A stretch of DNA of 64,000 nt from Sipunculus nudus (taxonomy: Eukaryota; Annelida; Sipuncula; Golfingiida; Sipunculidae). A program made the translations under genes and the position numbers. The stretch spans positions 30,197,456 to 30,261,455 of the forward strand of contig CM049312.1 of assembly GCA_026874595.1 (NCBI GenBank), given 5' to 3'. Below are positions 3,001-44,100 of this stretch, in pieces; position 1 is the first letter of the stretch, and every line of letters begins with the position of its first letter. The notes below the pieces were generated by a model. The model did no database searches, was not told where the DNA came from, and saw nothing but the letters and a program-made list of their open reading frames with translations.

Positions 3001-4094
3001 GAACCATTGTTAGGTGTCGCACGAATAGCGGTCAGCGGCGACTGACTAATTGTTAATTAGCCATACGTCTAATCGTCGGATTCCTGCACAGTAGCTGTTA
3101 CGGCATTCCGATATACCACGTGCCATGACAGCATAGAAATAGATCATTAACTTGGTCTGCCTGAAACTGACGATATGAAATCTATATTAACTTGCCAGCT
3201 TTGATTTAGTTGAAATAGATCATAAACCGCTTGGTCGGTCGCCTGAAACCGACGATATGAAATCTACCAAAAGTTAAAGTCACCAAACGGTTCTAACCTG
3301 GAGAAAGAACTGTTATTTGGATAACTGTGAATAGAAAAGAGCTTTATCGAGGAAAGATAGCATTGCAAGGGCCGGCGTTTGTCAATGTGAAGTATCTAAG
3401 TCCAGTATTAAGTAATGTAAATAAAACCCTGACACTTGAATAAGGCATCGAGATCGGAAGCAAAGTTCTGGAAATAGAGACAAATATCCAAATGCAGTGC
3501 CCAGCTGTGATTTCATAAAGGCGCACCGTATTTAAGCAAAGGGAGCTTGGTCTGTACAATAAATAGCAGTTACATAGACAACATTGTGGACTGTATGGCT
3601 AATAGAACAGTATTATTTACGTGTCTGCCACTTCTAAGCCGCAATGGTAGGGAAGGCCTATATTCACTTAGTTCTGACAAATGGTATCTGCCCAGTGCAG
3701 CAGTGAGAGTCTGTACTTTTTATGGATTTTACCCTCATTTGCGACCGGCATGAATAATTCCCTGTGACGACAGTTGATAGGATTTAACAATATTTAGGTA
3801 CGTATGTCTACATAAAATTTACAAATAACTATCATAAACAAGTAACGTAAAGTATTACTAATTTTTATCTGCAATCACAAACTCACACCAAAACGTTGTA
3901 TCATATGTTTTATGTACAGACATCTGTAAAACCTTGTTAAATATATTTATAACTGAATTGAATCATGTTATTGACACAAAAGCATGGAGGAAAACTGAAA
4001 TATATACTGTACTCAGGAAAAGGAAAGACTTTGGTTCTCTTTTTCTTTGGTCAAATGTATATCTTGAGTATATATGTAATCATGCATGTATGGG
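1..4094. other. no gene recognised; non-coding
   Basis: AT-rich sequence with scattered frames of 60-115 codons that lack recognisable domains, good splice context or codon bias. 3140-3270 holds a short direct duplication (gaaactgacgatatgaaatc / gaaaccgacgatatgaaatc). The frames at 855-1453 (minus) and 235-501 (plus) are the least AT-rich but nothing supports them. Confidence 0.6.
2226..2268 (+). repeat. (CA)n-(TA)n compound microsatellite
   Basis: About 8 CA then about 11 AT units. Confidence 0.95.
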
Positions 4095-4395
4095 TAGTAT
4101 TATATTAGTAATCTGGAAATATCGGGCATCGGTAGTATTATCTTGGTAATATGGAAAATTCGGGCATTGGAAGTATTAACTTAGTAATATGGAAATATCG
4201 GGCATCGGTAGTATTATCTTGGTAATATGGAAATATCGGGCATTGGAAGTATTAACTTAGTAATATGGAAATATCGGGCTTTGATAGTATTATCTTAGTA
4301 ATCTGAAAATATCGGGCGTAGGTAGTATAATCTTAAGTAATCTGGAAATATCGGGCATTTGTAGTATTATCTTAGTAATCTAGAAATATCTTCAG
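4095..4395 (+). repeat. ~39-bp tandem repeat, seven units
   Basis: Phrase ctggaaatatcgggcat followed by ggtagtattatcttagta recurs every 38-40 bp. A frame ending at 4149 runs into it by chance. Confidence 0.88.
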
Positions 4396-17280: not shown

Positions 17281-18550
17281 AACGGCTGTACATGTACATT
17301 TGTCATGAAAATTTATATTTTCATGAAATTTTCTATGTTTAGGAGCCGTAAAACAATCAAGAGTAGGTCAACTGGGACGAAACGCGAACACGATCTGTAA
17401 CTGGTCATTATCTGCATACACAACAAAAATCAGGCCAATATCTGCAGGCATTGCGAAAAAAAGTCCGTACATGTGTATTTGTCATGAAAAATTCTATTTT
17501 TCATGAAATTTTCTAAGTTAAGGAGCCGTAAATGGTCAAAAATAGGTCAACCGGGAGGAAACGCGAACTCGATCTGTAACTGGTCAATATCTGCATACAC
17601 ACCAAAAATCAGGCCAATATCTGCAGGCATTGCGAAAAAAGTCCATACATGTGTATTTATCATGAAAATTTCTATTTTTCATGAATTTTTCTAAGTTAAT
17701 GAGCCGTAAAACGGTCAAAAGTAGGTCAACTGGGAGGAAACGCGAACTCGATCTGTAACTGGTCAATATCTGCATACACACCAAAAATCAGGCCAATATC
17801 TGCAAGCATTGCGAAAAAAAAGTCCGTACATGTGTATTTGTCATGAAAATTTCTATTTTTCATGAAATTTTCTAAGTTAAGGAGCCGTAAAACGGTCAAA
17901 AGTAGGTCAACCGGGATGAAATGCGAACTCGATCTGTAACTGGTCATTATCTGCCAACACACCAAAAATCAGGCCAATATCTGCAGGCATTGCAAAAAAA
18001 ATCCGTACATGTGTATTTGTCATGAAAATTTCTATTTTTCATGAAATTTTCTAAGTTTAGGAGCCATAAAACGGTGAAAAGTAGGTCAACCGGGACGAAA
18101 CGCGAACTCGATCTGCAACTGGTCATTATCTGCCCACACACCAAAAATCAGGCCAATATCTGCAGGCATTCCGAAAAAAAGTCCATACATGTGTATTTGT
18201 CATGAACATTTCTATTTTTCATGAAATTTTCTTAGTTAAGGAGCCGTAAAACGGTCAAAAGTAGGTCAACCGGGATGAAACGCGAACTCGATCTGTAACT
18301 GGTCATTATCTGCCCACACACCAAAAATCAGGCCAATATCTGCAGGCATTGGGAAAAAAAGTCCGTACATGTGTATTTGTCATGAAAATTTCTATTTTTC
18401 ATGAAATTTTCTAAGTTTAGGAGCCGTAAAACGGTCAAAAGTAGGTCAACCGGGACAAAACGCGAACTCGATCTGTAACTGGTCATTATCTGCCTACACA
18501 CCAAAAATCAGGCCAATATCTGCAGGCATTGCGAAAAAAGTCCGTACAAC
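17281..18550 (+). repeat. ~180-bp tandem repeat, about seven units
   Basis: The phrase gatctgtaactggtcattat recurs at ~17393, 17571, 17751, 17932, 18112, 18292 and 18472, a spacing of ~180. Each unit also has catgaaattttctaagttaa and ccaaaaatcaggccaatatc. One earlier, diverged unit lies at 16260-16610, before the second nested element. Divergence between neighbouring units is low (a few per cent), suggesting recent spread. Confidence 0.9.
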
Positions 18551-19993: not shown

Positions 19994-20763
19994 CTACAGA
20001 TGTACTTTCACTGGCGACATCTTCTGAACATTTTTGGAAGCATATTCCTCAGCTTTCTTGCTCCTCCATGAACAAACATCAGCAAAGTCACATGACTGGC
20101 ACTTCCACGCTTCTTCAATATCGACACCCTTCATATCTCGCAGACCTTCCCAAAATGATACATGGTCAAAGAACTTACTCTCTAGCCATGTTTCGTTATA
20201 ATCAATCGAATTGATTGCAATGGTCGACTTGTCTTCCTGGTAACAATACTCAATAAGACACTGACTTATACATGGCAGGCTCTGCAACCTCTCGAAAGTA
20301 AAAGTCATCAGTTTTCTAAGTGTTTTACAACTTTCCATTTCTTCGCTATCCATTTCTTTCAAAACATCATCTCCAAGTGGGTGGTCCAATCTCAGTTTCA
20401 AATGTCTCGCAACATTTTCAGCAGTCACTTTACCTTTAATTAAATCATCATATAGTTTTTTGTACAACATTACTTGTAACCTGTGTGTGTCCTGTTGAGT
20501 TTTAGAAGGTATCCTTGAACTTGACCTAGTTTTCAGCTCAAGGATGTCAAATGTGAAGGTTTCTGGGTCACACTGGATTTCATCTATAAGGCCTACCATG
20601 AACACATCCTTGTCAAATGGGGCCCCGAACACCGGGATCTCTCTACGTATGGTAGATCCTGCTAAAAAGCTGTTGACTGCACCAAGGAGGTTGAGAACTT
20701 TCACAGCCCAAATGTCCTCGCTTGATGTCACCTTGACCTTCTTTACATCTTGGATGGCTAACT
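19994..20763 (-). CDS. EXO5: EXO5 coding exon 3 (catalytic core and Fe-S cluster)
   Basis: Acceptor gttcaacag ends at 20764 and the stop codon TAG is at 19994-19996. The 770-nt exon encodes residues 100-355. It holds the nuclease core (GLIDE, ELKTRSS, QQDTHRLQVMLYKK) and the CQSCDFADVC cluster followed by a basic tail. A frame beginning at the internal GTG (20731) is only the in-frame part; the true reading extends to the acceptor through ELAIQDVKKVKV. No frameshift or stop interrupts it. Confidence 0.95.
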
Positions 20764-23427
20764 CTGTTGAACAAAATGGACACGTGTGAGTTTTAGCAAG
20801 AGAAAAATGAAAATCATCAAATATGTTTGTATGTGAAAGTTAAATTTTTCTGAAGAACAGAAAATTGGTAAAATTAGCTAGACCCTTAAACATACAACTG
20901 ACTGAGAAACTCACAGGAATTATTTTTACATCCGTACACAGAATTATTTAACCAACTTAATTATTCTGAAAGCCAGGGCTTTTAAGAACATGATATTACA
21001 TGAGAGGATGTTAACTCTATTTATGTACTGACGAATCAATACACGACAACATACACTCACCCTGCTGCCACCTGGATAATAAAGAGTTAACCACTGTCAC
21101 CTTTGACCAGTGAAGGATTTTTCAACAATCTTCACGGAGCATTCTCATAAATTTCCCATCTGACTTAGGTTGAAACTTATTGAATGCCTGCATATTTCCA
21201 CATATTACCCTTCTACTGATGTTTGAGGTTGAACAGCCTTGTCACTTCAAATGGTTGACATTCAAGCCGTTTACAGGGGACAAGCTGGTCATAAATACAT
21301 TATGCTATTTGTTTCTCTTTCAGTGATACTGATTTCCAGTTGATGTTATTGTGCAGTCAGCAGGGTTGCATGGTTGTAGCCACCCATCTGTTAAAACCAG
21401 TCAAAAGCAAGGTTAAAACCACCTTGGCTAAAACAGGTTTTCCAGTATTTATGTCAAACCAATATTTCATTGCATTTATTTGGATGTTCAAACTAAATCT
21501 CACTGTGGTGTAATATGTATTTTAAGTGTTTAAATACATTTATTCAAATTCTGCATCAATGTTATTTTTTTCTGTGAGATTATTATATATAAAAAATAAC
21601 ATTTTTTTTAAAATTTTTTTTGGTGGAGGTAACCGCCTCCATTTTTTAATGCTGACTTATCTAATTCTTAATCTAAGTATGTACATCTGCAGAGTTTCCA
21701 TTTCGGTTTGGGACAACTTGACAGGGCAGTAGCACTCGCTTCCTATCATTTTTTTATTTTGTATCCTGGTGTCACCCAGGCCCGGTGTCTACCGCACCTG
21801 CGGGTCCTGGGTGTGTAATTATCCCCATTGCTGGGTCATAACACCGAGGAACCCCCCAAAGACGCACTCGCATGTGAGTGATACACAGCTGTGGGGCACA
21901 GTCTTCCCATTAACCCTGCAGAGCGTTCACCCTGGATGGGGCTCACCGTGAAAAACCTCACCGCCTCGGCTGAGATTCGAACCCACTATCTCCCGGCTTT
22001 GAGTCCTGCGCTCTACCCCTGAGCCACAGAAGCACAGAAGAAAAATTACATTTTACTTTGTTATGTATATTCTGACAATCAGTGTCTTTTATTAAGTACT
22101 ACATTAACTGATTACTTGACAGTTTTATCATGCTAAAACCATCAAAAAGTGGTTAAATCTGTTGTCAGCCTGTTTTAGCCATGGTTACTGGCTAAGAGTT
22201 AGCTGGCTAAAAGCCAACCATAGCACACAGTATATTTCATGAAGTTATGGTTAAAATTATGAAAAAAATGTAGTTTTTTGTTAGAAGACACACTGTCTCT
22301 TAGATGTGAATTGCTCTTGATAGGACTAGGCCTGCTAGACTTTTGGTGACAAAAACAGCAATGACGGAACAAATTAATCAGGGTCACCCTATAGCGGAGC
22401 TCTGGGACATAAACTCTCACCTCTCGCTAAGTGAAGATCTGACCCTGCTGTCATTTCGGGTTTCTCAACAACCTCCACTGGCAGCGTCATTGTGTACACC
22501 ATTTTCTGCTCACACCAACTCTGTGTGCACAGGTCTGACACCCACAGATATCCCGGCCGGAGCTGATGTAATGGTGGCCCCACTAACTCCAGAGGCCTAA
22601 CAGAATCTTCCGTGGTGGTGGTGGACTCGGCTGTATTGTCTCCTGAAAACATCATCAACACAGAGTCAGACATCATCTGCCATCTCGGGAGGGAACTGTG
22701 AACTACAATTTAGTATTTTGTTACTGAGTGAACTACAGAACCTGGATTGTAAATTTGGATCTTTCAGGTGGTCAGTGATAGTGTATTTTTTTCTATTATT
22801 AGCTCTGTGACCTTGAGATGTAGGTCAAGGTCACCCATCTTCCAACCTGACTGAGATTTTGTTGTAATGTATCAGGGCAGAAGAAATGAAATTCCTGTGT
22901 TTAATACTTTTGGAGAAATCCCCTCACAAAGGCCAAAATTGAAAAATTAGTTGAAAAATTCTTTAAAAATCTGAAATTGGAGGAAGTGCCTCAAAACTCG
23001 TGAAGCAATTACAGACCATCAGTGCCAATAATCTTACATGTTTTATATGAATCTACCCAGTGGTTCCTGAGAAGCCAGCTTCAAATTTTTTTTTATAATT
23101 CGCTCTTAAACGTTGAAAATATGTAAAGGTCACCCATCTACGAACTTGACCGAGATTTTGTAAATATACATCTGCACAGAAGAAATAAAATTCCTACGGT
23201 GAATCCTTTACAAGTGCTTTTTACTAGAATGTGCACAGGTGATTATGTTACCTCACTCATATATATAAATCTTTATACAGCATGTGGTAGAATATTCTCT
23301 CTTTAATTTTACTGGATGTGAGATGGACTTGGCCTGATTTCTTGAGACCTTACCTCAGAGTCTGAGTCCAAGATCAAGTCAAAGCCTGAGTTCCTATAAA
23401 GTGGACTGCAGATTATCTATGACCTGA

Positions 23428-26400: not shown

Positions 26401-29400
26401 TGAACATTAATCAATGGACGTGTTAAATCTCACAGTTGTGTATGGAGTGTTATAATCACAGTTAACTGCAGGTGCAATCTACAGACTCCACATTGCGTCA
26501 GTCACTGAAAAAAAAAGCAATTGAGGAGTTCATTCCTATGGGCTAGCTGGCCAGCTGCATGTGTCACATTTCTGCTGGGTGGGTCAGGAAGTTAGCAGTG
26601 ATGATGTAATGCCTGCACCGCACACCACTGGCTGGCTGAAAAATTTATTGCTAGAGCTCCTTGACCAGTACAGATTTGAACTTGTCAAGGGTCTGGGAGT
26701 CAACCACAGTGGGGCTGAGGGCATTCCACTCTGGTATTGTACTTGAGAAGAAAGAATTGCTATAACAATTTAGTCTTGCTCTGACGGGCAAGTATTTCTG
26801 TCGATGACCGCAGGTGTTGGAGTGAGATGGAGTTAGGTATGCCTCAGGTTCTAGAGCGACAAGGCCATGAACTATACGATAGAACATATATAGACAACTG
26901 AAATGTTGTCGTGCTTCCAGTGAGCGCCACTGTAATTTTTCAAGCATACATTGTACACTACTGGTGTTGCGGTATCAGTTACATTTAAAGCGTGCACTAC
27001 GCAGTTGTACCATGTCAATCTGGTGTGCTAGGCCTGACTGACGGATGGTAGAGTGACTTCTATTATGAGAAGGATCCCATACACTAGAAGTAAATTCCAC
27101 CTGCGGTCTTACAAGGGACTTGTATATCTGGCACAGGTGTTCTGATGTCACAGTAGCCATGACAACATGACACTCAGGCCTTCGGAAATAAACTGATAGG
27201 GCCTGGACCCTAGCTCTTCAGTTCATCTAAAATCGACGTTTGGGGTGACAGGCTGTCGCTAATGTCACAGTTACGCCTCAGTATGCCTAGTGTGCGGCTA
27301 GCTTTACTTGTAATATCATTTATACGGTGATTCCATTTTAGATCTGCCTGGATAGTGACACCTAAATATTTAATACTGTGTTCTTGAGGTCTTTCAAGGG
27401 TGGTGCCATGAACTGAAGGTAATACAGATGCATTAACGACTGTGAAGTTCGACGGACGTCCTAGGTCCATTTTTCGTGAAAATGCTCCGTGAATGCCTGC
27501 TCTTCCTCCGCTTTTAGCCGGAAACATATTTCCCTGACCAGCCTTCTGTTCACCGCTTTGCAGTGTATTTCGCTGATCATCGCTGCCCTTAAGGCTTCGT
27601 CAAGATCATGTATATCAAACGGTGCCAATACACGCTCTCTAATAGACAAATTTCACTATTAATAATAGTGCGACTATTATTCTTTTTTTTAAATCTGCTT
27701 GATATAAAAAATGTTATAAAATTTTAAATACGCTAAACAACCCATCAAGTTTGGTATCAACGGAAAGTATTTTTCACAGGTAGTCACATGGTATGAATTT
27801 TAGAGTGGCACAAGTGAGCGTTTTAGAGAAGTCAAATACGACTTTTATTCAATTTTATTTTAATTTAGCGTGAATTTTAAAATGTTATAAAATTTTAATT
27901 ACGCTAAACAACCCATTAAGTATGGTATCAACGGAAAGTACTTTTTACTGGTAGTCACATGGTATGAAATTTAGAGTGGCACAAGTGAGCATTTTAGAGC
28001 AATCAAATACGACTTTTATTTAATTTTATTTTAATTTAGCGTGAATTTTAAAGTGTTATAAAATTTTAAATACGCTGAACAACCCATCAAGTTTGGTATC
28101 AACGGAAAGTTCTTTTAACAGGTAGTCACATGGTATGAATTTTAGAGTGGCACAAGTGAGCGTTTTAGAGCAGACAAGTACGACTTTTATTCAAATTTTT
28201 TAATTTAGCGTGAATTTTAAAGTATTATACATCTTTAAATACGCTAAACAACCCATCAAGTTTGGTATCAACGGAAAGGACTTTTTACTGGTATTCACAT
28301 GGTATGAATTTTAGAGTGGCACAAGTATGCATTTTAGAGCAGTCAGATATGACTATTATTCATTTTTTTTTAAAATTTAGCGTGAATTTTAAAGTGTTAT
28401 TAATCTTTAAATACGCTAAACAACCCATCACGTTTGGTATAAACGGAAAGAACTTTTTACTGGTAGTCACATGGTATGAATTTTAGAGTGGCACAAGTGA
28501 GCGGTTTAGAGCAGTCAAATACGACTATTATTCAATTTTATTTTAATTTAGCGTGAATTTTAAAGTGTTATAAAATTTTAATTGTGCTAAACAACCCATC
28601 ATGTTTGGTATCAACGGAAAGTACCTTTTACTGGTATTCACACGGTATGAATTTTAGAGTGGCACAAGTGAGCGTTTTAGAGCAGTCAAGTACGACTGTT
28701 ATTAATTTTTTTTAATTTAGAGTGAATTTTAAAGTATTATACATCTATAAATACGCTAAACAACCCATCAAGTTTGGTATCAAAGGAAAGGACTTTTTAC
28801 TGGTATTCACATGGTATGAATTTTAGAGTGGCACAAGTGAGTGCTTTAGAGCAGTCAAATCCGACTATTATTCAATTTTATTTTAATTTAGTGTGAATTT
28901 TAAAGTGATATAAAATTTTAATTACGCTAAACAACCCATCAAGTTTGATATCAACGGAAAGAACTTTTCACTGGTAGTCTTATGGTATGAATTTTAGAGT
29001 GGCACAAGTGAACGTTTTAGAGCAGTCAAGTACGACTTTTATTCAAATTTTTTAATTTAGCGTGAATTTTAAAGTATTATACATTTTTAAATACGCTAAA
29101 CAACCCATCAAGTTTGGTATCAACGGAAAGGACTTTTTACTGGTATTCACATGGTATGAATTTTAGAGTGGCACAAGTGAGTGTTTTAGAGCAGTCAGAT
29201 ACGACTATTATTAATTTTTTTTAAAAATTTAGCGTGAATTTTAAAGTGTTATTAATCTTTAAATACGCTAAACAACCCATTACGTTTGGTATAAACGAAG
29301 AGAACTTTTTACTGGTAGCCACATGGTATGAATTTTAGAGTGGCACAAGTGACCGTTTTAGAGCAGTCAGGTACGACTATTATTCAATTTTATTTTAATT

Positions 29401-32400
29401 TAGCGTGAATTTTAAAGTGTTATAAAATTTTAATTACCCTAAACAACCCATCAAGTTTGGTATCAACGGAAAGGGCTTTTTAGTGGTATTCCCATGGTAT
29501 GAATTTTAGAGTGGCACAAGTGAGCGTTTTAGAGAAGTCAAATACGACTTTTATTCATTTTTTTTAATTTAGCGTGAATTTTAAAGTGTTATTAATCTTT
29601 AAATACGCTAAACAACCCATCAAGTTTGGTATCAACGGAAAGGACTTTTTACTGGTATTCACATGGTATAAATTTTAGAGTGGCACAAGTGTGCGTTTAA
29701 GAGCAGTCAGATACGACTATTATTCATTTTTTTTTAATTTAGCGTGAATTTTAAAGTGTTATTAATCTTTTAATACGCTAAACAACCCATCACGTTTGGT
29801 ATAAACGGAAAGAACTTTTTACTGGTAGTCACATGGTATGAATTTTAGAGTGGCACAAGTGACCGTTTTAGAGCAGTCAAATACGACTATTATTCAATTT
29901 TATTTTAATTTAGCGTGAATTTTAAAGTGTTATAAAATTTTAATTACGCTAAACAACCCATCAAGTTTGGTATCAACGGAAAGAACTTTTCACTGGTAGT
30001 CTTATGGTATGAATTTTAGATTGGCACAAGTGAGCGTTTTAGAGCAGTCAAGTACGACTTTTATTCAAAATTTTTTATTTAGCGTGAATTTTAAAGTATT
30101 ATACATCTTTAAATACGCTAAACAACCCATCAAGTTTGGTGTCAACGGAAAGGACTTTTTACTGGTATTCACATGGTATGAATTTTAGAGTGGCACAAGT
30201 GTGCGTTTTAGAGCAGTCAGATACGACTATTATTCATTATTTTTAAATTTAGCGTGAATTTTAAAGTGTTATTAATCTTTAAATACGCTAAACAACCCAT
30301 CACGTTTGGTAAAAACGGAAAGAACTTTTTACTGGTAGTCACATGGTATGAATTTTAGAGTGGCACAAGTGAGCGTTTTAGAGCAGTCAGATACGACTAT
30401 TATTCATTTTTTTTTAATTTAGCGTGAATTTTAAAGTGTTATTAATCTTTAAATACGCTAAACAACCCATCAAGTTTGGTATAAATGGAAAGAACTTTTT
30501 ACTGGTAGTCACATGGTATGAATTTTAGAGTGGCACAAGTGAGCGTTTAAGAGCAGTCAGACACGACTATTATTCAATTTTATTTTAATTTAGCGTGAAT
30601 TTTAAAGTATTATACATCTTCAAATACGCTAAACAACCCATCAAGTTTGGTATCAACGGAAAGAACTTTTCACTGGTAGTCTTATGGTATGAATTTTAGA
30701 GTGGCACAAGTGAGCGTTTTAGAGCAGTCAAGTACGACTTTTATTCAATTTTTTTAATTTAGCGTGAATTTTAAAGTATTATGCATCTTTAAATACGCTA
30801 AACAAGCCATCAAGTTTGGTATCAACGGAAAGGACTTTTTACTGGTATTCACATGGTATGAATTTTAGAGTGGCACAAGTGTGCGTTTTAGAGCAGTCAC
30901 ATACGACTATTATTCATTTTTTTTTAATTTAGCGTGAATTTTAAAGTGTTATTAATCTTTAAATACGCTAAACAACCCATCAAGTTTGGTATAAATGGAA
31001 AGAACTTTTTACTGGTAGTCACATGGTATGAATTTTAGAGTGGCACAAGTGAGCGTTTTAGAGCAGTCAGACACGACTGTTATTCAATTTTATTTTAATT
31101 TAGCGTGAATTTTAAAGTGTTATACATCTTTAAATACGCTTAACAACTCATCAAGTTTGGTATCAACGGAAAGTACTTTTTACTGGTATTCACATGGTAT
31201 GAATTTTAGAGTGGCACAAGTGAGCGTTTTAGAGCAGTCAGATACGACTATTATTCATTTTTTTTTAATTTAGAGTGAATTTTAAAGTGTTATATATCTT
31301 TAAATACGCTAAACAACCCATCAAGTTTGGTATCAATGGAAAGAACTTTTTACTGGTAGTCACATGGTATGAATTTTAGAGTGGCACAAGTGAGCGTTTT
31401 AGAGCAGGCGGATACGACTTATATTCAATTTTTTTTTTTCAATCCGCGTTGATTTTAAAGTGTTATATATATTTAAATACGCTTAACAACTCATCAAGTT
31501 TGGTATCAACGGAAAGTACTTTTCACTGGTAGACACTTGGTATAAAAATTAGAGTGGCACATGTGAGCGTTTTAGAGCAGTCAGATACGACTATTATTCA
31601 TTTTTTTTAATTTCTCTTGGATTTTAAAGTGTTATAAATTTTAAAATACGCTAAAAAACCCATTAAGTTTGGTATCAACGGAAAGTATTTTTCACTGTAG
31701 TCTTATGGTATAAAAATTAGAGTGGTACAAGTGAGCGTTTAAGAGCAGGCGGATACAACTAATATTCAATTTTTTTTCAATTTCGCGTTGATTTTAAAGT
31801 GTTATATATATTTAAATACGCTTAACAACTCATCAAGTTTGGTATCAACGGGAAATAAAAAAAATGAATAACAGTCGTATCAGGCTGCTCTAAAACGGTC
31901 ACTTGTGCCACTCTGATTTTTATACCATGGGACTACCAGTGAAAAGTACTTTCCGTTGATACCAAACTTGATGGGTTGTTTAGCGTATTTAAAGATATAT
32001 AACACTTTTAAATCCAAGAGAAATTTAAAAAAATGAATAATAGTCGTATCAGGCTGCTCTGAAACGCTCACTTGTGCCACTCTGATTTTTATACCATGAG
32101 ACTACCAGTGCAAAGTACTTTCCGTTGATACCAAACTTGATGGGTTGTTTAGCGTATTTTACAATATATAACACTTTAATATCCAAGAGAAATTAAAAAA
32201 AATGAAAAATAGTCGTATCAGGCTGCTCTAAAAGGGTCACGTGTGCCACTCTGATTTTTATACCATGGGACTACCAGTGCAAAGTACTTTCCGTTGATAC
32301 CAAACTTGATGGGTTGTTAAGCGTTTTTAAATATATATAACACTTTAAAATCCACGGAAAATTAAAAAAAATGAATATTAGTCGTATCAGGCTGCTCTAA

Positions 32401-35329
32401 AACGCTCACTTGTGCCACTCTGATTTTTATACCATGAGACTACCAGTGCAAAGTACTTTCCGTTGATACCAAACTTGATGGGTTGTTTAGCGTATTTTAC
32501 AATATATAACACTTTAATATCCAAGAGAAATTAAAACAAATGAATAATAGTCGTATCTGACTGCTCTAAAACGCTCACTTGTGCCACTCTAATTTATATA
32601 CCATGTGACTACCAGTGCATAGTACTTTCCGTTGATACCAAACTTGATGGGTTGTTAAGCGTATTCTAAGATGTATAACACTTTAAAATTCACGCTTAAT
32701 TTTAAAAAATGAATAATAGTCGTATTTGACTGCTCTAAAACGGTCACTTGTGCCACTCTACAATTTATACCAAGTGAATACCAGTAAAAAGTACTTTCCG
32801 TTGATACCAAACTAGATGGGTTCTTTAGCGTATTTAAAGATATAAAACACTTTAAAATTCACGCTAAATTAAAAAAAAATTGAATAATAGTCGCATTTGA
32901 CTGCTCTAAAACGGTCACTTGTGCCACTGTAAAATTAATACCATGTGAATACCAGTGTAAAGTACTTTCCCTTGATACCAAACTGGATGGGTTCTTTTGC
33001 GTATTTTAAGATATAAAACACTTTAAAATTCACGCTAAATAAAACAAATTGAATAATAGTCGCATTTGACTGCTCTAAAACGGTCACTTGTGCCACTCTA
33101 AAATTTATCCCATGTGAATACCAGTAAAAAGTACTTACCGTTGATAACAAACTTGATGGGTTCTTTGGCGTATTTTAAGATATATAACACTTTAAAATTC
33201 ATGCGAAATTAAAAATAAATGAGTAATTGTCGCATTTGACTGCTCTAAAACGGTCACTTGTGCCACTCTGATTTTTATACCAAGTGAATACCAGTAAAAA
33301 GTACTTTCCGTTGATACCAAACTTGATGGGTTCTTTGGCGCATTTTAAGATATATAACACTTTAAATTTCATGCGAAATTGAAAATAAATGAATAATAGT
33401 CGCATTTGACTGCTCTAAAACGGTCACTTGTGCCACTCTACAATTCATCCCATGTGAATACCAGTAAAAAGTACTTTCCGTTGATACCAAACTTGATGGG
33501 TTCTTTAGCGTATTTTAAGATATATAACACTTGAAAATTCATGCGAAATGAAAAATAAATGAATAATAGTCGCATTTGACTGTTCTAAAACGGTCACTTG
33601 TGCCACTCTACAGTTTATACTAAGTGAATACCAGTAAAAAGTACTTTCCGTTGATACCAAACTTGATGGGTTCTTTGGCGTATTTAAAGATATAAAACAC
33701 TTTAAAATTCACGCTAAATTAAAAAAAAAATGAATAATAGTCGCATTTGACTGCTCTGAAACGGTCACTTGTGCCACTGTAAAATTCATACCATGTGAAT
33801 ACCAGTGCAAAGTACTTTCCGTTGATACCAAACTGGATGAGTTCTTTGGCGTATTTTAAGATATAAAACACTTTAAAATTCACGCGAAATTAAAAAAATG
33901 AATAATAGTCGTATCAGGCTGCTCTAAAACGGTCACTTGTGCCACTCTAAAATTTATCCTATGTGAATACCAGTAAAAAGTACTTTCCGTTGATACCAAA
34001 CTGGATGGGTTCTTTGGCGTATTTTAAGATATATAACACTTTAAAATTCATGCGAAATTAAAAATAAATGAATAATAGTAGCATTTGACTGCTCTAAAAC
34101 GGTCACTTGTGCCACTGTAAAATTCATACCATATAACTTCCAGTGAAAAGTACTTTCCGTTGATACCAAACTTGATGGGTTCTTAAGCTTATTTAAAGAT
34201 GTATAATACTTTAAAATTCATGCGAAATTAAAAATAAATGAATAATAGTTGTATCTGACTGCTCTAAAACGGTCACTTGTGCCACTCTAAAATTCATACC
34301 ATGTGACTACCTTTGAAAAGTACTTTCCGTTGATACCAAACTTGATGGGTTCTTTAGCGTATCTAACATTTTATGACACTTTAAAATTACGCTAAATTAA
34401 AAATTTTAATAATAGTCGTATTTGACTGCTCTAAAACGGTCACTTGTGCCACTCTAATTTTTATACCATATAACTACCAGTGAAAAGTACTTTCCGTTGA
34501 TACCAAACTTGATGGGTTGATCAGCGTATTTAAAATTTTATGACACTTTAAAATTCACTCGAAATAAAAAAAAAAATGAATAACAGTTGTACCTGACTGC
34601 TCTAAAACGCTCACTATGCCTCTCTAAAATTTATTTTAAAAAATGTGACTACCTGTGAAAAGAACTTTCTGTTGATACCAAACTTGAAGGGTTGTTTAGC
34701 GTATTTAAAATTTTATAACATGTTTTATATCAAGCAGATTTTTAAAAAAAAAGAATAATAGTCGCATTATTAGTATTATTAATAGTCATATTTGTCTGTT
34801 GGAAAGCGTGTATTGGCGCCGTTTGATATACATGATCTTGACGAAGCCTTGAGGGCAGCGATGATCAGCGAAATACACTGCAAAGCGGTGAACAGAAGGC
34901 TGGTCAGGGAAATATGTTTCCGGCTAAAAGCGGAGGAATAGCAGGCATTCACGGAGCATTTTCACGAAAAATGGACGTCGGACGTCCGTCGAACTTCACA
35001 GTCGTGATGCATTATTGGTGTAGTACGGGCAGGGATGGTTAGAGTCTGACATGTGGAGGGATTAAACTCCATCAGCCATTCTCTTTCCCATGATCCTACA
35101 CTGTCTATGTCCTGCTGGAGTTTGAGGCCGTCCTCCTTATATTATAATATAATTTATTTCTTTTTGAATGATGCAGTCATATGCAAATAATCTAATTTTA
35201 CTGAATTTATATAGAACTTGAAGACTATAGAAAACACAACCATAATATCTTACCAACATCCAGGCTAGCTAACTCTTCGTCATCAACATCGTCCCAGAGA
35301 TCATCGCTGTCACAAACTGTCCCCGCCAT
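19994..35329 (-). CDS. EXO5: exonuclease V (EXO5), whole gene, three coding exons
   Basis: Single-strand DNA exonuclease of the PD-(D/E)XK/RecB-like class; in animals EXO5 acts in nuclear genome repair (established for the family). Joining 35329-35254, 22642-22421 and 20763-19994 gives one 355-residue frame, close to the 373 of the human protein. Both introns are GT-AG and phase 1. Visible motifs: WCE near residue 69, GSDLHLARE at 92-100, GLIDE with D160, ELK at 175-177, QxxxH with H193 and Q196 followed by LY, and a C-terminal cysteine cluster C321, C324, C330. The 3-and-6 spacing of that cluster matches the Fe-S ligands of EXO5, with C69 as the likely fourth. The frame is intact with no stops. 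Intron 1 is about 12.6 kb and full of nested transposons; intron 2 is 1.66 kb and holds a SINE. Identity is firm; exon 1 rests on phase fit and an acidic start typical of the family. Confidence 0.93.
21745..22040 (-). mobile_element. tRNA-derived SINE (family 1, copy in EXO5 intron 2)
   Basis: Reverse complement starts with a tRNA-like head: A box tggctcaggggtagagcgc and B box gggttcgaatc about 35 bases on. A non-tRNA body with aacgctctgcagggttaatg follows, then a tail ending in an A-rich run. Same body as the copy at 11466-11640. Transcribed in the same direction as EXO5. Confidence 0.8.
22421..22642 (-). CDS. EXO5: EXO5 coding exon 2
   Basis: Acceptor ttttcag at 22643 upward; donor gtgaga just below 22421. 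The exon is 222 nt, entering and leaving in phase 1, and encodes residues 26-100. It carries the Thr-rich linker, the LWVSDLCTQSWCEQK stretch with the presumed N-terminal Fe-S cysteine (C69) and the SGSDLHLARE-like motif, which is split across the next junction (the Glu codon is G from here plus AG from exon 3). An opposite-strand reading frame at 22343-22600 is only its shadow. Confidence 0.92.
22795..23215 (+). repeat. dispersed repeat shared with 16730-17160
   Basis: Both contain agctctgtgaccttga, ggtcaaggtcacccatctt, tttggagaaatcc, acaaaggccaaaattgaaaa and accatcagt in the same order. Lies in EXO5 intron 1 close to exon 2. Ends near ttttactagaatgtgcac (23220), which again contains CTAG. 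Confidence 0.65.
23437..23473 (+). repeat. (TA)n microsatellite
   Basis: About 18 TA units in EXO5 intron 1. Confidence 0.95.
23569..23745. mobile_element. MITE-like element, GGATCC family, copy 3 (EXO5 intron 1)
   Basis: Ends CAGTAGCGGATCC and ATCCTGGATCCGCCCCAG are inverted repeats. Internal ggacccccctttt tracts match the other copies. About 177 bp. A 70-codon frame across it is an artefact. Confidence 0.6.
24145..24672 (+). repeat. direct duplication, copy A (EXO5 intron 1)
   Basis: Shares a long colinear series of phrases with 25972-26540: tttcctatgg, gaagcacctgt, atttgtccagagagaattga, acacatagatgtac and cacagttgtgtatggagt, diverged by substitutions and small indels. Roughly four in five bases agree by eye. 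Confidence 0.8.
25972..26540 (+). repeat. direct duplication, copy B (EXO5 intron 1)
   Basis: Second copy of 24145-24672, about 1.3 kb downstream of it on +. Just left of it, 25510-25970 has no recognised content. No coding frame is conserved between copies. Confidence 0.8.
26640..27435 (-). pseudogene. LINE reverse-transcriptase ORF, 3' half (degenerate)
   Basis: On the minus strand, pieces in different frames read like the C-terminal part of a CR1/jockey-type non-LTR retrotransposon ORF2: SIKYLGVTIQADLKWNHRIN and SKASRTLGILRRN near 27230-27350, SLVRPQVEFTSSVWDP near 27100, and FFSSTIPEWNALSPTVV near 26700, ending in a stop at 26651 followed at once by AATAAA. Frameshifts separate the pieces. 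It ends at the foldback element, and its upstream continuation is at 35015-35145. Inactive relic. Confidence 0.8.
27436..27660 (+). repeat. left terminal inverted repeat of the foldback element
   Basis: About 220 bp, matching 34785-35006 in inverse orientation with only a handful of differences. On the minus strand it holds an open frame of about 60 codons (27461-27649, LAPFDIHDLDEALRAAM onward) with composition unlike the AT-rich arms. Confidence 0.88.
27661..31856 (+). repeat. left arm: ~24 tandem units of ~171 bp
   Basis: Each unit carries acaacccatcaagtttggta, a tcaacggaaag segment, tagagtggcacaagtgagcg and a T-rich tract with tttagcgtgaattttaaag. Units recur every 168-174 bp. Subtypes are recognisable: 'ggactttttactggtattca', 'gaactttttactggtagtca' and 'gaacttttcactggtagtct'. 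Short reading frames in this stretch are repeat artefacts. Confidence 0.93.
31857..34784 (-). repeat. right arm: ~17 tandem units of ~171 bp, inverted
   Basis: Same unit as the left arm in reverse complement (ccgttgataccaaacttgat, cacttgtgccactct). Units here are more diverged from the left arm than left units are from each other (e.g. ggttcttt for ggttgttt), so the two arms have been homogenised separately. The orientation flips within one unit at about 31857. Confidence 0.92.
34785..35006 (-). repeat. right terminal inverted repeat of the foldback element
   Basis: Inverse copy of 27436-27660. The same reading frame is present on the + strand here, but GAG in the left copy is TAG here, and it runs on through DVRRTSQS because the bases after EKWT differ (acgtcg against acctag). 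Confidence 0.88.
35015..35145 (-). pseudogene. LINE reverse-transcriptase ORF, fragment upstream of the foldback insertion
   Basis: On the minus strand this reads LQQDIDSVGSWEREWLMEFN then STCQTLTIPARTTPI, the segment that lies just before the KYLGV motif in CR1/jockey-type LINEs. It is the part expected immediately 5' of 27435, showing that the two pieces were one element before the insertion. The frames differ by one base at the join, so the LINE was already damaged or was damaged later. Confidence 0.75.
35254..35329 (-). CDS. EXO5: EXO5 coding exon 1
   Basis: Starts at the ATG whose complement is at 35327-35329 and encodes 25 residues plus one base. The product begins MAGTVCDSDDLWDD and is rich in Asp and Glu, like the variable acidic N-terminus of EXO5 proteins. 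The donor reads GTTG followed by gtaaga. The single leftover G completes a Gly codon with the GA that opens exon 2, so the phase fits. This exon is too short to stand out alone. The support is position, strand, donor quality and phase. A degenerate LINE lies only ~160 bases upstream, so the promoter must be compact or lie within repeat-derived DNA. Confidence 0.75.
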
Positions 35330-41135: not shown

Positions 41136-44100
41136 CTACAGTTTAAAAAAACGAGCAAGTGGTTATGACGCTCAGATAACAGGCTAAGGAGACTCCGTGA
41201 CTTTGTCAGAACATATGATGAAAAGAAATACCGTATTAAGGTAATTTCAGGTTTCCAGGAAGATTACACCCTGCTGTGAACCTGAATGATTAAATTTTGG
41301 CTTATGGATAACCGGATGGTATTCAGATGGCTAAGGTGACTTTCATTGAGCTGAACCAGACGCATACCCATGGAAACGAGACACAAGTGTTCTTGAACGT
41401 ATCGGTTACTATAATATGAATATAAAAATATCTTTGTGATCTGTGTTTACTTCTTGTCTAAGGCATTTAATTAAGAATTAACATAAGCCAAAAGCGTTAT
41501 CTTAGTGCATGATACTGAGTTAATTATTTTATTATCCCATGTTTTTCCAATAATATCCAGATAATTTTTGTTATCTTACGTTATTCCATCATTAAATTGT
41601 TACTTTTTTGTTATCCCGCTTTATCCCATCATTATCGAGTTATATTTTTTCTGCGTTATATCACAACATTATCGAGTTACTCTATTTTGTTATCCTACAT
41701 TTTCCCAACCTTATCGAGTTCATTTTTTTGTTATCCTACGTTATCCCGATATTTTGTGTGGCAACTCTTTTTCATGTGAACGTGTGCATGTAAACATGAA
41801 TCAGAACATATTTATTTGAAAGATATCGCTTACTTAATAGCAGCTTCATTGGTGCTATGATTTTAAGTTTCTGTAGCTAAATTAACGAACTATAGGTTTG
41901 TAAATTTTCAGTGAGTAAAATACGGGTTATCCTGGCTTTAGTTATCGTAAATTAACCACATATCATATCAATGATCAATATTTACCGCACATAAACTAAC
42001 ATTGGTCTTTAGTCCTTGGCGACTGGCTTATTCTTTACTTCATTCCGTCTTTCATCAAAACCTTTTTCGTCCGTTCTTTCCGCTGCAGTGATATAACTCC
42101 GGTGAAAATAAGAGTTTGGAAGACAGAAATAAGTGTTTCATGTCACGTACGTTACGAGTAACCTTGTTACCTAATGAGTTGAACCCCCGACTTGTTTGAT
42201 GGTTTGGGGCCTGTTTAAAAATGGACGAGGAAGGGGTAAAGTCGAGACCGGCAATTCAAGTACCATTTTTGGCAATCTGACATTTGTCCTCAACCAGCTT
42301 TATTAGCGTCAGAGTGGCTTCACATCTGGCATTGAAGACCGTACTTTAACGCTCTACGGGGATGCAAATAATTTCGTAATTTTGACATTGCCTCATTAAC
42401 TACAGGTGCAATGTCATTTGACATAAACCAGACCATTTGTTAGATTTTTTGTATACTTTCCAATAACACCAACCATGCGGGCCAAAAAGGTCGCTTTAAC
42501 TCGGCATATTTGTAAATCATTCTGCATGTTTGTTGTATTTCTTACCGCACGAATATAAGCATGTTTAGCACGGGTTACTGGATGACAGCAAATGTGTACG
42601 CGACACAATAATTCGTTACCAAAGAGACGGATTTTCAGTTTGGTTATCGAGTTCAACAGGATGGATGGACACTGCAGTCCATTCCCACGTATGGCTTGTA
42701 TCACGACCCAAGTTAGGCTTATTAGCCAAATATCAATCCCTACTGAGTCGTATGTTCACGGCTAGCCCATTCCAAGACCAACATCGGGAATGAGACCATG
42801 TGATCCTGGCCCGAGACCGAGACAATGTGGTCCTGGCCTGAGACCAGAACAGAGACTATGTGATCCTGGCCTGAGACCAGAACCGAGACCATGTGATCCT
42901 GGCCTGAGACCAGAACCTTAAAAAAATGTGATCCTGTCCTGAAACCAGAACTGAGACAATGTGGTCCTGGCCTGAGACCAGAACCGAGACCATGTGATCC
43001 TTGCCTGAAACCAGAACTTAAAAAATGTGGTCCTGGCCTGGGACCAGAACCGAGACCATGTTATCCTGGCCTGAGACCAGAACCGAGACCATGTGATCCT
43101 GGCCTGAGACCAGAACCTAAAAAAATGTGATCCTGTCCTGAAACCAGAACTGAGACAATGTAGTCCTGGCCTGAGACCAGAACCGAGACCATGTGATCCT
43201 GGCCTGAAACCAGAACTTAGACAATGTGGTCCTGGCCTGGGACAAGAACCGAGACCATGTTATCCTGGCCTGAGACCAGAACCGAGACCGTGTGATCCTG
43301 GCCTGAGACCAGAACCGATACCATGTGATCCTGGCCTGAGACCAGAACCGAGACCATGTGATCCTGGCCTGAGACCACGCAGAACCGATACCATGTGATC
43401 CTGGCCTGAGACTGGAACCGAGACCATGTGATCCCTGCCTAAGACCAGAACCGAGACCATGTGATCCTGGCCTGAGACCAGGACCGAAACCATGTGATCC
43501 AGGCCTGATATCAGAACCGAGACCATGTGATCCTGGCCTGAGAGCAGAACCGAGACCATGTTATCTTGGCCTGAGACCAGAACCGAGACCATGTGATCCT
43601 AGCCTGAGACCAGAACCGAGACCATGTGATCCTAGCCTGAGACCAGAACCGAGACCATGTGATCCTAGCCTGAGACCAGAACCGAGACCATGCGATCCTG
43701 GCATGAGACCAGAACCGAGACCATGTGATCCTGGCCTTAGGTCAAAACCGAGACCATGTGATCCTGGCCTTAGACCAGAACCGAGACCATGTGATCCTAG
43801 CCTGAGACCAGAACCTGAGACCAGAAACGAGACCAAGTGATCCTGGCCTGAGTTCAGAACCAAAACCATGTGATCCTGGCCTGAGGTCAGAACCGAGACC
43901 ATGTAATCATGGCCTGAGCGCAGAATCGAGACATGTGATCCCAGACCAAGAATACCTAGACCTCTAGACTATATATAATATGCTAATTGAACAGTCTTCA
44001 TCTTCTGATTGATTATAAGCAAATGTCCGACAAATACACTTGCATATATTAGAATTACTCTCAAGACCTACATCACTGGAACGGAGAAAAAATCAAAAAA

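Follow-up and report, generated by a model that had tools for sequence, protein, structure and literature searches.

The locus analysed here carries two arrays of one ~170-bp tandem repeat, which run in opposite orientation and stop at sharp outer ends, and it raises the question of whether such a structure is a satellite, a fault of assembly or a mobile element. The window, i.e. the whole stretch of 64,000 nucleotides of Sipunculus nudus DNA that was analysed (C7:30197456-30261455), belongs to a genome of 1.43 Gb in 153 contigs; loci are named by contig and position, C1:72.85 meaning 72.85 Mb on C1. Very probably, the window contains one copy of a non-autonomous Foldback-type DNA transposon with satellite arms. 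The hallmarks of the family are unique terminal inverted repeats (TIRs) of ~224 bp beginning ACGACTGTG, a 9-bp target site duplication, and opposed ~170-bp arrays which meet directly.

The element in the window and its host site

The element spans positions 27436-35005 of the window (7,570 bp), and a 9-bp duplication with the same letters, GATGCATTA, lies outside each TIR, at 27427..27435 on the left and 35006..35014 on the right. It had first been read as the 8-bp duplication atgcatta; the ninth base matches too, both at this locus and for 13 of the 17 pairs of ends considered below, and the actual length is 9 bp. Inwards from the left duplication follow a type A TIR (27436..27660, forward strand, first letters ACGACTGTGAAGTTCGACGGACGTCC), which has 40 scored genome copies at 96-100%, a left arm of 25 units of the tandem repeat (27671..31851, forward), and the centre, at 31852..31860, where sequence and junction alignment place the arms in contact without a spacer. 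The right arm (31860..34768, reverse strand) consists of 17 inverted units beside a type B end, whose TIR was delimited by TIR alignments at 34782..35005 (reverse). Tandem Repeats Finder, on which the arm boundaries rest together with the unit counts, reported abutting opposed arrays at 27671-31851 (period 171, 24.6 copies) and 31848-34768 (period 169, 17.2 copies). This agrees with the original prediction, made from the window's letters, of two opposed arrays of a ~171-bp unit between inverted ends of ~220 bp; the two TIRs align as an inverted repeat, with 3.7% difference over 215 bp.

Other parts of that prediction fared less well. The palindrome, expected to have arms of ~3-4 kb, does have opposed arms, but these are unequal (25 vs 17 units, about 4.2 vs 2.9 kb) and far from perfectly complementary, the longest ungapped complementary stretch found being 690 nt at 87%. 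The ends had been called coding-like; their 64-aa frame is without a Pfam match, and of its 83 genome matches 30 are interrupted by stops, five of the six divergent relatives fetched among them. Rfam gave no match in the window.

The pre-insertion target was presumably a decayed LINE-like reverse transcriptase frame, a label given on the basis of motifs, with its C-terminal part at 26978..27426 (reverse strand) and its other half at about 35016-35141. When the flanks are joined, each side resembles reverse transcriptase, although the frame changes from one to the other; a Pfam scan of a single ORF of this flank (27210-27527) returned no reverse transcriptase match. The wider setting had been given as an intron of a DNA-repair gene. 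The gene stands, since the C-terminal exon of EXO5 (exonuclease V) at 19997..20839 (reverse strand) matches Pfam PF09810 (E 1.2e-37) and PDB 7lw7 (E 5e-42), while the intron was placed by eye: a likely exon 2 lies near 22.4-22.7 kb and, from its reading frame, a probable first exon (MAGTVCDSDDLWDD...) at 35253..35328 on the reverse strand, near 35.25-35.33 kb, so that the element is probably within the first intron of EXO5. Long palindromes in introns, as in this probable EXO5 case, bear on genome stability. The window contains further tandem arrays, namely a 179-bp unit repeated 7 times at 17288-18548 (93%), a 33-bp minisatellite of 30 copies at 42816-43941 and a 38-bp unit of 8 copies at 4093-4390.

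Paired ends across the genome and a proposed mobilising transposase

The terminal 26-mer of the TIR, with up to 3 mismatches allowed, has 72 matches in the genome, 60 of them exact, against none for a reversed-pattern control, and the end is therefore not a chance sequence. Fifty-four of these ends form 27 inverted pairs. A further pair was recognised at C6:58332450, where the right end is split by a nested transposon and the 24-mer predicted for end plus duplication occurs once genome-wide, 9.45 kb downstream, as expected. The resulting 28 pairs are 4.6-42.4 kb apart (median 16 kb, sum 476 kb), and 17 ends remain unpaired, 7 of which are variants with 2-3 mismatches.

Both outer flanks were read for 17 of the 28 pairs. 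The 9-bp duplication is exact in 13, matches at 8/9 in one and at 7/9 in another, and is missing in two (C1:59.86 and C2:41.75); among mispaired flanks, used as controls, none of 272 gave an exact 9-bp match and the best reached 7/9. The tenth flank base agrees in just one of the 17 pairs, and the 13 exact duplications have no evident target consensus. C4:70.86, at 40.1 kb the largest of the pairs whose duplication is exact, is known by its ends only, and the largest such element read through, C5:65.77, measures 27.1 kb, including a 2.7-kb insert. The earlier proposal of a foldback element inserted as a unit is borne out by these 28 pairs and their duplications, as is the expectation of further copies with TIRs and flanking duplications across the genome, and two outcomes that had been named as refuting it, a lack of TIRs elsewhere and a lack of duplications genome-wide, were not encountered.

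Eleven elements were read, i.e. the one in the window and 10 picked for having both ends among the scored TIR matches, with lengths of 6.7 to 27 kb as assembled. At C6:58.33 this covers the foldback part and, in part, the nested insert; the stitched copy of C4:28.45 represents 85% of the element and ends before its last 3.6 kb, the final 1.5 kb of which was read separately. The other 17 pairs are known by ends of up to 1.5 kb or, for C15:42.47, by 1.7 kb at its start and 2 kb at its end. Two traits which define foldback elements were thus observed: a target duplication of fixed length at many loci, and long inverted terminal repeats containing tandem repeats, the latter in 11 of 11 elements read.

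Two observations concern the ends themselves. The unpaired ends C1:65946779 and C1:66801743, 855 kb apart, have outer 1.5-kb flanks which are 99.8% identical and inverted, with Merlin-type 22-mers ~21 kb outward on both sides; this could be a large inverted duplication ending at the foldback, or an assembly or haplotype fault. The outermost ~130 bp of the TIR recur at four places (on C4, C12, C14 and C11), where the sequence beyond the terminus is similar and that inside is unrelated; another repeat family may be the source of the TIR or may have captured it.

Movement of such elements would call for a trans-acting cut-and-paste transposase, for which the ends would be the recognition sites and the complete palindrome the unit that is cut out and reinserted. 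A MULE-type (Mutator-like) enzyme is, with somewhat better than an even chance, the likely if unproven mobiliser. It is favoured because of the 9-bp duplications, the long repeat-bearing ends and the precedent of Foldback and Tm1, and because P-type duplications are shorter. The observed length falls within the 8-11 bp given for MULE duplications in the available text of PMC6446971, and Merlin ends, by the account in PMC8101967, should begin with GG.

Profile searches of the genome yielded at least 131 matches to PF10551 (MULE; 150 of 252 candidates scored) and at least 150 to PF12762 (IS1595/Merlin; 150 of 209 scored). Among the matches listed, checked by eye against the 28 pairs, transposases lie inside two pairs only, a MULE and a Merlin in C6:58.33 and a Merlin in C15:42.47. 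One check suggested with the prediction was to look for a larger copy that has a transposase between such ends; the transposase genes inside these two pairs have termini of their own. No autonomous partner was found among the listed PF10551 and PF12762 matches, most pair interiors lying outside the sequence read, and the superfamily is consequently judged from duplication size and architecture.

The MULE at C6:58346255 was considered as the partner and rejected. It belongs to an insert of 9.45 kb (C6:58344569-58354014), which is bounded by GGGTCAGAC ends, interrupts the last 15 bases of the foldback's right TIR and combines a MULE-like frame with a Merlin gene. The insert's ends, GGGTCAGACTAAACACC...GGTGTTTAGTCTGACCC, stand between two copies of a 9-bp duplication, GTCGAACTT, and a MULE nested with its own inverted ends and its own duplication is not the partner of the foldback. 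Its frame, of at least 701 aa, gave a weak Pfam MULE match just under the cut-off (E 9.5e-6).

A Merlin (IS1595-type) transposase might instead have moved the family. Merlin duplications are also of 8-9 bp (PMC8101967), a range which includes the 9 bp observed, a Merlin gene is present inside both C6:58.33 and C15:42.47, and the unit shares TACGACTAT with the genome's Merlin end GGTACGACTATAG. This last likeness is weak and post hoc, a 9-mer match equalled by 32 of 1000 shuffles. The gene of the C6 insert (E 1.2e-21) ends in GGTACGACTATAGAAACCGGGC, and C15:42.47 holds a damaged copy of the same Merlin abutting the first foldback unit; both copies share the intact 22-base terminus, exact at 11 places in the genome, and of the 11 full-length matches (at least 93%) to the 1-kb 3' region of the nested gene, 9 are outside foldbacks. 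Both copies were judged to be nested, on the evidence of the right-hand terminus, which was the one read and recurs at 9 other places, and were rejected as partners. Moreover, Merlin termini begin 5'-GG (PMC8101967), whereas the foldback ends begin ACG, as in ACGACTGTG, and a Merlin mobiliser is unlikely.

On the side of the MULE reading, a putative MULE-end motif in the unit offers a lead only. The unit and the MULE end share CTAAACAnCCCATC at 13 of 14 positions, which 0 of 1000 and then 7 of 20,000 shuffles equalled, while 46 of 5,000 random 22-mers from the window did as well and the motif ranks 56th of 170 in conservation within the unit. The foldback's own end and the unit have no shared motif (804 of 1000 shuffles as good).

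The Merlin-type 22-base end, with up to 3 mismatches, has 557 matches in the genome, mostly GGCAGAACTATAGAAACCGGGC among the matches listed, which points to a numerous family of MITEs derived from Merlin. On the small contigs C101-C138, nearly identical IS1595-type frames cluster in large numbers (about 342 aa; 317-329 aa); these contigs may be bacterial, from a symbiont or a contaminant.

Junctions, arms and the ~170-bp unit

All 11 elements read have the same order of TIR, array, inverted array and TIR, with unequal arms (e.g. 6/31, 12/57 and 47/93 units). The arms join within 40 bp in 10 of them. In C1:59.86, the one exception, the arms are separated by 2.46 kb; judged by eye, the ends of this spacer are like those of an insert in an arm of C5:65.77, so the spacer is probably another mobile element.

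The 10 direct junctions fall into 7 classes when flipped orientation is allowed for, one of which is common to C1:72.85, C4:28.45, C4:6.87 and C6:23.33 (the last two flipped). Its members agree at 85-88 of 90 positions in a 90-bp comparison, against at most 61/90 for any other pair, and are 93.5-96.8% identical over 1.2 kb, where other pairs aligning over more than 1.1 kb range from 81 to 92%. Placed in like orientation, their arms count 28/66 units at C1:72.85, 100 and at least 14 at C4:28.45, 25/36 at C4:6.87 and 77/53 at C6:23.33, and each of the four has its own exact 9-bp duplication at a different locus. One junction at four loci, with separate duplications and differing arms, implies that whole elements moved after the junction had formed, while the arms changed. 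Junctions and 9-bp duplications therefore act as lineage tags and provide a natural series for the rates at which arrays and centres change after jumps. The junctions of C8:10.78 and C6:58.33, alike at 61/90, may be related.

The arms would grow and shrink by local tandem duplication, through unequal exchange or replication slippage, for which unequal arms and near-identical blocks of units argue. Unit pairs at least 99% identical number 198 in the left arm of C4:28.45, 116 in the left arm of C1:59.86 (best lag 11) and 83 in the right arm of C5:65.77; such blocks at long lags in several arms are a sign of recent local duplication. The left arm of C1:59864917-59889753 has both a variant unit of 177 bp and a higher-order repeat of ~1.9 kb (11 units), the product of recent local amplification. 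The palindrome centre, in turn, may be repeatedly broken and rejoined, a process familiar from the palindrome literature, which would give varied spacer-free junctions and erase any former core.

A second arm copied from the first at each insertion was also considered and is unsupported, as the two TIRs of an element are no closer to each other than to those of other elements (1.80% divergence within, 1.76% between; permutation p 0.52, 16 pairs). In these 16 pairs with both TIRs read, type B accounts for 5 of 32 TIRs, always opposite type A (A/B 5, A/A 11, B/B 0). Type B ends have their own lineage of units: first-unit difference across 35 ends is 7.2% for B-B, 8.5% for A-A (a mean including divergent unpaired ends) and 13.4% for A-B. 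Typing of unread copies by an in-frame TAG alone gave A/B in 14 of 27 and B/B in 0 (chance 0.10), on which no claim is made; a tendency of A/B elements to be shorter is not clear (p 0.09).

The unit is satellite-like, being ~170 bp long and A+T-rich, with local higher-order blocks and a mean identity of 87.8% over 892 aligned units (spacings outside 140-200 bp dropped, columns with more than half gaps removed). These properties speak for an ordinary satellite trapped between two short inverted MITE ends. Such a reading fits poorly with the 28 TIR pairs, with the identical build of all 11 elements read and with exact duplications around the whole element in 13 of 17. In addition, units adjacent to the TIR are kept by position, with identities of 96.4% at position 0, 92.3% at 1 and 90.9% at 2 over a background of about 85-88%, an effect which fades by about the tenth unit and has no comparable counterpart counted from the centre. 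Such conservation across elements (96.4% vs 86.5%) indicates that array and TIR were inherited together.

The distribution of the unit tells the same way. A 25-mer of the unit has 1,287 exact copies in the assembly (reversed control 0), and from the 487 copies in the 160.9 kb of arm and TIR of the 11 elements, 1,391 are predicted for the 28 pairs (460 kb with known inserts removed; bootstrap over elements 1,261-1,498). As the count is close to this prediction, scant room is left for free satellite arrays, the count being one of exact assembly matches, which diverged or unassembled arrays would escape; main arrays free of transposon boundaries, as in a classical satellite, were not found by this measure. 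Of the 100 matches of the 25-mer listed (C1 up to 72.86 Mb), two paired elements account for 98, the other 2 being next to the two unpaired ends of C1, and a separate search for units (about 150 of 212 matches listed; 12 of 153 candidates scored) located them in 11 of the 28 pairs. A trapped satellite is thus very improbable.

Long inverted repeats are classic traps for assembly and chimaeric reads, and the palindromes described here are known from assembly alone, their lengths being hard to assemble. The inversion could on this ground have arisen in assembly, when a head-to-tail array was folded back into a chimaera, and the inverted 99.8% flanks of C1:65946779 and C1:66801743 may point to such a fault at that place. 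Differing unique flanks joined by matching 9-bp duplications, however, require real ends on both sides, and a single junction recurs at four loci. The arms of the window element also differ in length and sequence and its right end is of the distinct type B, so that the two sides are not one read and its copy; an artefact is hardly credible.

With the foldback reading retained, the scattered, sharp-ended satellite-like arrays are explained, for this one repeat, as arrays which travel as the arms of a transposon. A stronger form of it is tentative and rather doubtful: that the satellite has no existence apart from the transposon whose body it forms, coreless palindromes of up to about 40 kb being moved whole, with the array serving transposition and the centres continually remade. 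One role which the array of units might then have is that of a ladder of binding sites for the transposase, and such elements would evolve by revision of the centre and growth of the arms rather than by point mutation.

Relation to described elements

Drosophila FB (FB-NOF) and sea urchin TU elements have inverted ends that are long, carry repeats and can fold back, and Drosophila FB has 9-bp duplications and short repeats. Likened by description, the family resembles FB in the 9-bp duplication and the fold-back ends and differs in its one ~170-bp unit. Membership of the P superfamily, as a Galileo-like foldback, is the least probable reading of all, P-type duplications being 7-8 bp long against 9 bp in all 13 exact cases. 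Galileo-type foldbacks also have tandem repeats in their TIRs, as is mentioned in PMC4079207.

The closest likeness in architecture comes from two systems, and the suggestion that the composition may be undescribed has to be narrowed with respect to both. Tetris of Drosophila virilis has a unique outer TIR-FD, a variable array of ~220-bp repeats, a middle domain, TIRs of up to 1.7 kb and 8-10-bp duplications; in the available text of that report no transposase was found, the array grows within the element, and the repeats also occur free, 39 of 69 contigs having repeats alone with up to 66 copies (PMC4079207). By description, the Sipunculus family is like Tetris in the unique outer TIR, the variable array, its growth within the element and the lack of a transposase among what was found in either; it is unlike Tetris in its arms of up to about 100 units, in having no core in the 11 elements read and in repeats apparently confined to the element. 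Tm1 of root-knot nematodes, of the Mutator/Foldback family, has composite TIRs with a variable number of tandem repeats of ~14 bp, unequal TIRs within one element, mostly 9-bp duplications without target preference, internal sequence and, in some copies, a putative transposase, according to the accessible part of PMC3169594. Repeat-bearing composite TIRs, 9-bp duplications and unequal arms are common to both, whereas the ~170-bp unit, and the absence of a transposase among the findings for the Sipunculus family, set it apart. What remains new relative to described foldbacks is the size, the lack of a core in the copies read and a repeat which is almost only inside the element, and to this extent the suggestion was partly right.

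Rehavkus, a MULE relative from arthropods and annelids, has a 9-bp duplication, TIRs of 26-400 bp and a minisatellite beside the 3' TIR (PMC6446971, as far as its text was available); it is like the Sipunculus element in the duplication and differs by the presence of a transposase and by a minisatellite at one end.

A search of open-access full text, by titles and abstract openings and with Repbase/Dfam and subscription papers outside its range, found no mollusc foldback with satellite arms among the entries listed. Helentrons are not known to have TIRs and duplications of the foldback kind. A looser likeness, that of mobile elements bearing satellite-like units in molluscs, is offered by the pearl elements of bivalves, with up to six such units in the available text of PMC5139131, and by the satellite-carrying Helentron elements of bivalves (PMC7492417).
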